Position numbers and translations under genes: made by a program | NCBI GenBank assembly: GCA_013388435.1 | Contig: JACAFE010000024.1 | Span: 1 to 52,658, forward strand | Direction of reading: 5' to 3' | From: Nitrospirota bacterium | Lineage (GTDB): Bacteria; Nitrospirota; Thermodesulfovibrionia; Thermodesulfovibrionales; SM23-35 | DNA length: 52,658 nucleotides | Shown: positions 34,011 through 35,573 of the stretch, piece by piece | Layout: each line of letters starts with the position of its first letter | Numbering within the stretch: the first letter of the stretch is position 1 | Notes under the pieces: generated by a model | The model's input: the letters and a program-made list of their open reading frames with translations, nothing else | Databases searched by the model: none | Told to the model about the DNA's origin: nothing

Positions 34011-35573
34011 TTAAACAAAAATGTTAATAATATATCTGCCTGACGAAATGACAGGCAGATCAGTTTTTTCATTCGCATTATCTACAGACATTTGTGCATT
34101 ATAATATTCTGAAGTTTCCCCTTTTTTCTCTTTTAGATTTATTGAAAAACTTCCGATATTTATACCATCATCTAAAAGCACTTTAACAATATCATTTATG
34201 TTTTTATTAATAATATCCCTTCCTGCCATCTCAAATGCATCAACTTTTGCATGGACCACACCGTTATCAAGACTTAAATGGATATGAAGTTTGCCCATTC
34301 CTTCAGGCTTTAATGATATTTCAATAAAATTATTTTCTTTCTTTGTAATCACAAATGAATCTTTTATAATATTTGGAATCTCAGTCACATCGGGTTTTTT
34401 CTCAATTAACTTTGTTTTATCTGAATCAATAATTTTATTGTTCAAATTATTTAAATTATTTTCATATATACTTCTCGTATTTATTTCTTTATTTATTTGA
34501 TTATCAAAGTCAGTTAACTCACATTTTATTTCATCAATATCGTAAAGATTTAATATTTTATCCAATGGTTTTTTAGTAACATCTGTCCTAAATTTAAATA
34601 ACGTGTCATTTTTAAAAGTAATATCACCTTCAAAGGTATCGGTTTCTCTGGCATCCGGATTAATTAAGATATTATTGTTTTTCGACTTATTGCCATGATT
34701 ATCTGATATTATTATTTGCTTTGATTCATGGTTATATGTGATTTGACTTTTATTAAATGACATTGTTGAAGATAGTTCTGTATCTTTGATATTTTTATCG
34801 TATTTAAAATTATTTATTAAAATATTTATAATTGAGGGTTTCTCTAATTTTTTATAATCATAAGTATTTTCATTAGGTGTTTTCAATAAATTTGCAATTT
34901 CTGCGGGCAATTGAATCTTTAAGTCATTATCTAAAATTAATTCTGCTAACTTATTATTTTCTATTGAATTCGTTTCTTGAGAGAGAACTGATAGTTTTCT
35001 TCTTGAATCTATATTTTCATTTAATATTTTAGGGTTAAAATCATTATAATCTATTTCAGAAATAATCTTTGACTCTGGTATTCTTTCGAATTCTTTTTGA
35101 ACTTTTATCAAAAAATTCTTTGCTTCTTTAAAATTACAATTATCAATGCCTTCATTCCCTCTATTTGGGTTATACAAATATTTATTGTCAGAAAAATAAA
35201 TAAACAAATCGGATATTATATCAACAATATCTTTAGAATTATCTTCATTATTAAATTCTTTTTCTATGCCTGTTTTATCTTTATTAAGTTCTTCCACTAT
35301 AACTGCTTTATCTTCATTAAGTCCTTCCACTATAACTGCTTTATCTTCACTAAGTCCTTCCACTATAACTGCTTTATCTTCACTAAGTTCTTGATAACAA
35401 ATTTTATGAACGGGTTTTAATAAATCTGATAAATCTGATATATCTGCAATTATACTATTAAGGCAAAAACTGAAAGCACTTTTATTTGTATCCCCAGTTT
35501 CAATAATATTCTTAAAAATATCTATTGGCTGTATTTTTTGCAATTCAATTTGTATGGGAATTGTAAAATCCAT
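34011..35573 (-). CDS. fliK: Flagellar hook-length control protein FliK
   Basis: The 520-residue protein is recognised by its C-terminal Flg_hook domain (about 415-500: IEISLKPEGMGKLHIHLSLDNGVVHAKVD), which switches export specificity when the hook is complete. The rest is low-conservation, Asn/Asp/Ile-rich sequence typical of a FliK ruler. Near residues 60-105 are about four 11-residue repeats of LSEDKAVIVEG type. The ATG lacks a clear ribosome-binding site. fliK-flgD-flgE read in one direction and may be a separate transcript from the flgB operon. Confidence 0.88.
   Translation of the reverse strand: MDFTIPIQIELQKIQPIDIFKNIIETGDTNKSAFSFCLNSIIADISDLSDLLKPVHKICYQELSEDKAVIVEGLSEDKAVIVEGLNEDKAVIVEELNKDKTGIEKEFNNEDNSKDIVDIISDLFIYFSDNKYLYNPNRGNEGIDNCNFKEAKNFLIKVQKEFERIPESKIISEIDYNDFNPKILNENIDSRRKLSVLSQETNSIENNKLAELILDNDLKIQLPAEIANLLKTPNENTYDYKKLEKPSIINILINNFKYDKNIKDTELSSTMSFNKSQITYNHESKQIIISDNHGNKSKNNNILINPDARETDTFEGDITFKNDTLFKFRTDVTKKPLDKILNLYDIDEIKCELTDFDNQINKEINTRSIYENNLNNLNNKIIDSDKTKLIEKKPDVTEIPNIIKDSFVITKKENNFIEISLKPEGMGKLHIHLSLDNGVVHAKVDAFEMAGRDIINKNINDIVKVLLDDGINIGSFSINLKEKKGETSEYYNAQMSVDNANEKTDLPVISSGRYIINIFV
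35268..35391 (-). repeat. 33-bp tandem repeat inside fliK
   Basis: About 3.75 units of 33 bp. The units at 35301-35333 and 35334-35366 differ at one base, the unit at 35268-35300 is more diverged, and the last is partial. The period is 11 codons, so copy changes keep the frame and lengthen or shorten the FliK ruler region. Confidence 0.9.

Follow-up and report, generated by a model that had tools for sequence, protein, structure and literature searches.

An in-frame 33-bp tandem repeat in the hook-length ruler FliK of a Nitrospirota bacterium, probably a tolerated expansion

Introduction

The length of the flagellar hook is usually described as tightly fixed. We examined a 52,658-nucleotide contig of a Nitrospirota bacterium (JACAFE010000024.1, hereafter the window) in which the gene for the putative hook-length ruler, fliK, contains an in-frame tandem repeat. 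Does this array make hook length variable, or is it an expansion that a ruler can tolerate? In Salmonella, the N-terminal domain of FliK (residues 1-207) and the linker act as the ruler, and switching of the export gate is the task of the C-terminal domain (PMC6972891). Engineered Salmonella FliK proteins of 363-785 amino acids control hook length linearly, at 0.2 nm per residue (PMC6126814), and wild-type hooks measure 52.7 ± 4.5 nm (SD; PMC6972891).

An in-frame array upstream of the switch domain

The gene and its conserved domain are as follows.

34011..35573, minus strand: fliK, flagellar hook-length control protein, 520 amino acids (open reading frame and Pfam Flg_hook)
34122..34343, minus strand: Flg_hook domain, the C-terminal export-switch domain, residues 411-484

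The original prediction identified this gene as fliK, and we agree. Flg_hook (PF02120) is the sole Pfam match in the protein (E = 5.8e-12, 45.7 bits versus a cut-off of 29.8). The protein has this domain at its C-terminal end, as a member of the FliK family should, and its gene lies in a flagellar hook operon: fliI, fliJ, and an MgtE_N-containing gene are upstream, and flgD and flgE are downstream (gene order fliI, fliJ, MgtE_N-containing gene, fliK, flgD, flgE). These neighbors are the usual company for a hook ruler, and the predicted role of the protein is a secreted ruler that sets hook length.

At 35248-35392, TRF reports a 33-bp period with 4.4 copies, 90% matches, and not a single indel. 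Its score of 171 is the highest among the 19 rows for the window, and the runner-up scores 76. The array is clearly above chance; shuffling the window 100 times with a first-order Markov model gave a best score of 79 at any period. Within it, four head-to-tail 33-bp units at 35256-35387 are in frame on the minus strand and encode FliK residues 63-106:

35355..35387, minus strand: repeat unit 1, LSEDKAVIVEG, residues 63-73
35322..35354, minus strand: repeat unit 2, LSEDKAVIVEG, DNA identical to unit 1 (33/33)
35289..35321, minus strand: repeat unit 3, LNEDKAVIVEE, 31/33 versus units 1 and 2
35256..35288, minus strand: repeat unit 4, degenerate, LNKDKTGIEKE

Thus, the array that was predicted at 35268-35391 is real, with coordinates that were a few bases off. 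The description of its units as nearly identical holds for units 1-3 and fails for unit 4, which matches units 1, 2, and 3 at 24, 24, and 26 of 33 positions. So, three of these tandem in-frame units share 31-33 of 33 bases, as expected for a variable-number tandem repeat (VNTR), and the fourth shares 24-26. Both of the base differences between unit 3 and units 1-2 alter the amino acid. The minus-strand translation bears out the 11-codon unit, and the array does lie in the expected place of the ruler, upstream of the switch domain, so that gaining or losing one unit would alter FliK by 11 residues, as had been proposed.

A structure prediction from a 12-sequence alignment had a mean pLDDT of 36 and a pTM of 0.20, and the array has no confident predicted structure (pLDDT of about 36-42 across residues 61-100). 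The length contributed by each residue depends on whether the unit is helical. We also looked for strand folding or a DNA hairpin in the array and found none above chance (z = 1.48).

The array and a congener

The array is nearly absent from the single congener that we compared (G001). Its FliK has 513 residues, is 52% identical to the window's FliK, and contains just one degenerate unit (KDIMAIEKEL), which is best matched by unit 4 of the array. The presence of three near-identical copies here (31-33 of 33 bases, as compared to 52% identity for the whole protein) versus one unit in the congener suggests that the array probably expanded after the two species split. The alternative direction, a loss of units in the congener, is less likely. 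The alignment of the two proteins across the array region is uncertain. In the array region the two proteins differ by 33 residues, but the congener's FliK is just 7 residues shorter overall because gaps in other stretches run the opposite way. In this one comparison, the array therefore hardly changes total length.

Tandem repeats in FliK of relatives

To find relatives in named genomes, we searched with the FliK sequence, but the 14 stretches that matched the pattern yielded no confirmed FliK. Using FliI as the query instead gave 33 named loci. Flg_hook matches were present in at least 120 of the 206 genomes of the class that were searched, and the loci for part of our FliK set were drawn from the best-scoring part of the Flg_hook matches listed. 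The final set has 161 FliK proteins that are distinct in their last 100 residues (including the window's own; 11 are cut by the end of the locus). As controls, we used the longest-ORF calls of at least 100 amino acids in the same loci, which may include spurious ORFs. The genomes are mostly draft or metagenome-assembled.

Gap-free in-frame arrays (TRF score of at least 80) are present in 21 of 161 FliK genes, compared to 9 of the 1295 other genes that were called in the same loci (odds ratio 21, P = 1.4e-14, Fisher exact test; the relatives are not independent). Among other genes of at least 1000 nucleotides, just 1 of 412 has such an array. Two of the array-bearing "other" genes (L061, 8127-9626, and L072, 8697-9683) occupy the expected position of fliK. 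They may be FliK proteins that the profile missed, which would strengthen the contrast. The contrast is with other genes of the same loci, and the excess in FliK could reflect general disorder and low conservation.

If gaps are allowed, then 26 of the 161 FliK genes have an array with a TRF score of at least 80. The period is divisible by 3 in all 26, and none of the 26 arrays reaches the Flg_hook domain (its mean starting point is 77% of the way along the protein). Thus, all of these arrays keep the reading frame and lie upstream of the switch domain. The repeat-bearing proteins are spread over 22 of 112 similarity clusters and their periods span 12 to 198 bases, which suggests that most of the arrays arose independently. 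The relatives' arrays are similar to the window's but mostly unrelated to it. Arrays were found in 22 of 113 hook-operon FliK and in 4 of 48 FliK encoded elsewhere, which is not a significant difference (P = 0.10).

FliK proteins with repeats are also longer (median 536.5 amino acids for 22 uncut proteins versus 437 for 128 uncut proteins without, P = 1e-5). With the extra copies taken away, they are still longer (median 497, P = 0.007); the copies thus account for no more than part of the difference in length.

The FliK of Nitrospirae bacterium JdFR-86 (L059, 8430-10409, plus strand) has 660 amino acids and about 8 copies of a 99-base unit; at 0.2 nm per residue, the hook would be about 46 nm longer as a result of the seven extra copies. 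Other hook parts can also have long in-frame duplications: a FlgE-like protein of 952 amino acids (L119, 2-2857, minus strand) has 2.6 copies of a 318-base repeat, and a FlgD-like protein (L120, 5376-6176, plus strand) has 1.8 copies of a 297-base repeat (both are named from resemblance and position).

In many genomes of the class, there are two matches to Flg_hook. In the window's genome, the second is a 417-amino-acid protein on contig C65 (L191, 6976-8229, plus strand), which has a different N-terminal part and is encoded away from the hook operon. Five FliK-like proteins from outside the hook operon (L131, L157, L189, L206, and L208) all have exactly 373 amino acids, and the aligned pairs among L131, L157, L189, and L208 have no gap of 3 or more residues, in contrast to the variable FliK of hook operons.

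Changes in unit number between species

Most of the 50 close pairs of FliK proteins do not have a unit-sized change in length. Some related species do differ by such changes. First, the FliK of L198 (431 amino acids) has a 58-residue insert relative to those of L157 and L208 (both 373 amino acids); the insert is 74% identical to the neighboring segment, and there is no matching loss. Second, the FliK of L006 has two extra 5-residue units (10 residues) relative to L005; both of these are clear examples of a net gain in length. Third, a homologous 10-residue unit of the KTIAPEM type has about 8 copies in L010 versus 2 in L108 and L114 (in L114, as counted by eye from the printed sequence). A weaker case is a 5-residue difference beside the array in the FliK of L167 and L176. 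All of these comparisons are between species, not strains.

For variation among strains, we turned to E. coli fliK, which was not selected for having repeats. We sampled 60 records at even steps down the ranking of 5136 matching records, and the span of fliK was exactly 1128 bp in 59 of the 60. The other is cut by an IS5-like element: in strain F3 (L240, 3001-4161), fliK is truncated beside this element, with a partial rcsA directly after it, so that fliL to fliR are absent from this locus.

Tandem repeats elsewhere in the genome

We scanned 357,195 bases of the window's genome (the window and 20 other stretches) and found 13 distinct arrays with a TRF score of at least 80. Five of these are in a long stop-free frame, and the remainder are short intergenic arrays. 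The array in fliK is not the strongest of its genome. Outside fliK, the coding arrays (L218, 507-2120 and 1894-3267, minus strand; L226, 1007-2443, plus strand) belong to collagen-like GPTGPTG proteins and to one protein with 2.9 copies of a 195-base repeat. Short arrays of variants of about 8-9 bases, of the type GCGTTTATA / AACGCTATA, are present on several contigs (L220, 12976-13457; L229, 114-271; L227, 4257-4371; L230, 5344-5420; L225, 11720-11931), and no long stop-free frame spans them. We also considered whether the unit was copied from another site in the genome and rejected this, as the best match outside of fliK is 28 bases long (E = 0.013).

Explanations for the array

We consider it likely that the array is a tolerated and recurrent kind of in-frame expansion, in a ruler whose length matters more than its sequence. 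In the N-terminal half of FliK, which is poorly conserved and contains the ruler, a segment of 11 codons would have expanded in tandem and in frame, from one ancestral unit and after the split from the congener, most likely by replication slippage or unequal recombination. Additions that shift the frame or that fall within the switch domain would be removed, and in-frame additions to the ruler would survive. A ruler that acts chiefly by its length would tolerate the array. Over evolution, FliK may have become longer repeatedly by such additions, among other ways. A published motility pseudorevertant had a spontaneous in-frame duplication inside FliK (PMC6972891), so duplications of this kind do occur. 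If the Salmonella value applies, then each 11-residue unit would lengthen the hook by about 2.2 nm, and three extra units by 6.6 nm. As 2.2 nm is less than the standard deviation of 4.5 nm in Salmonella, a step of one unit would be difficult to recognize in any one cell.

A second possibility, which we think has perhaps one chance in a handful of being right, is that the expansion is functionally silent: it would lie within a disordered region, and changes in other parts of the ruler would hold the lengths of FliK and of the hook nearly constant. The similar total lengths of the window's and the congener's FliK fit with this idea, as do the low pLDDT values across the array and the small predicted effect of a unit relative to the natural spread of Salmonella hooks. 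However, repeats go with longer FliK in the relatives, the 58-residue gain in L198 has no loss to offset it, and added residues do lengthen the Salmonella hook linearly (PMC6126814).

Third, the array could be a contingency locus, as the original prediction implied: slippage would give rise to subpopulations that differ in hook length. Two perfect copies and a near-perfect one, all adjacent, are a substrate for slippage; the number of repeats in another ruler, YscP, varies among strains (PMC3469391); and in another FliK, related species have different numbers of a homologous unit (L010 versus L108 and L114). Nevertheless, this seems improbable for an array that is known from one genome of its species. 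The array has just 3-4 units, including a degenerate one; the spread of wild-type Salmonella hooks exceeds steps of about 2 nm; the congener's FliK lacks the array and is just 7 residues shorter; and the folding of the array's strand is within chance.

Fourth, it is very improbable that the 11-residue unit has been selected as a module that binds, for example, the hook cap or the hook protein, even though the N-terminal part of Salmonella FliK binds FlgD and FlgE (PMC6972891): other FliK have units of other sequences and lengths (12 to 198 bp), a single degenerate unit persists in the congener, and both differences among units 1-3 alter the amino acid. Equally improbable is an artifact of this draft, 88-contig assembly, in which a short near-identical array can collapse or extend, given that units 2-3 and 3-4 differ, that the 132-bp array should be about as long as one short read, and that many other assemblies have similar arrays.

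Returning to tolerated in-frame expansion, the array looks like an ordinary route by which ruler length changes over evolution, rather than a demonstrated switch. A broader claim, which we regard as doubtful, is that across the class fliK is a hot spot for in-frame tandem duplication, that the gain and loss of repeats is a main route by which ruler length changes between species, and that hook length could be read from the number of repeats. Hook length would then be an evolvable trait. The window's single array is a modest example of a ruler with added in-frame units.

Comparison with known systems

We found no report of tandem repeats in FliK in the literature that we searched, but coverage was partial, with most subscription journals falling outside it, so this is weak evidence of absence. 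PMC10541020 has nothing on repeats in YscP that bears on the fliK array, and PMC5700931, which we consulted for length variation in FliK, deals only with expression.

The array resembles coding in-frame VNTRs in that its units are adjacent and nearly identical in DNA; it differs in having few units and in being known from one genome of the species. The FliK proteins of Salmonella and E. coli belong to the same family and share the C-terminal switch domain. In Salmonella, both insertions and deletions within the ruler alter hook length, at 0.2 nm per residue (PMC6126814). E. coli fliK has a constant length in nearly all of the records that we sampled.

The closest precedent is YscP, a ruler that is homologous in function and also has repeats. 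Its motifs of 14, 25, and 46 residues vary in number among strains of Y. enterocolitica, giving proteins of 452, 515, and 538 amino acids, and needle length is linear with the size of YscP (PMC3469391). YscP differs from the FliK studied here in that it belongs to an injectisome, its motifs are different, the differences in length are larger (63-86 residues), and the variation is among strains. If the ruler half of FliK does gain in-frame units, then it would provide natural length variants for testing the ruler model across species, in parallel to the repeats of YscP for injectisome needles.
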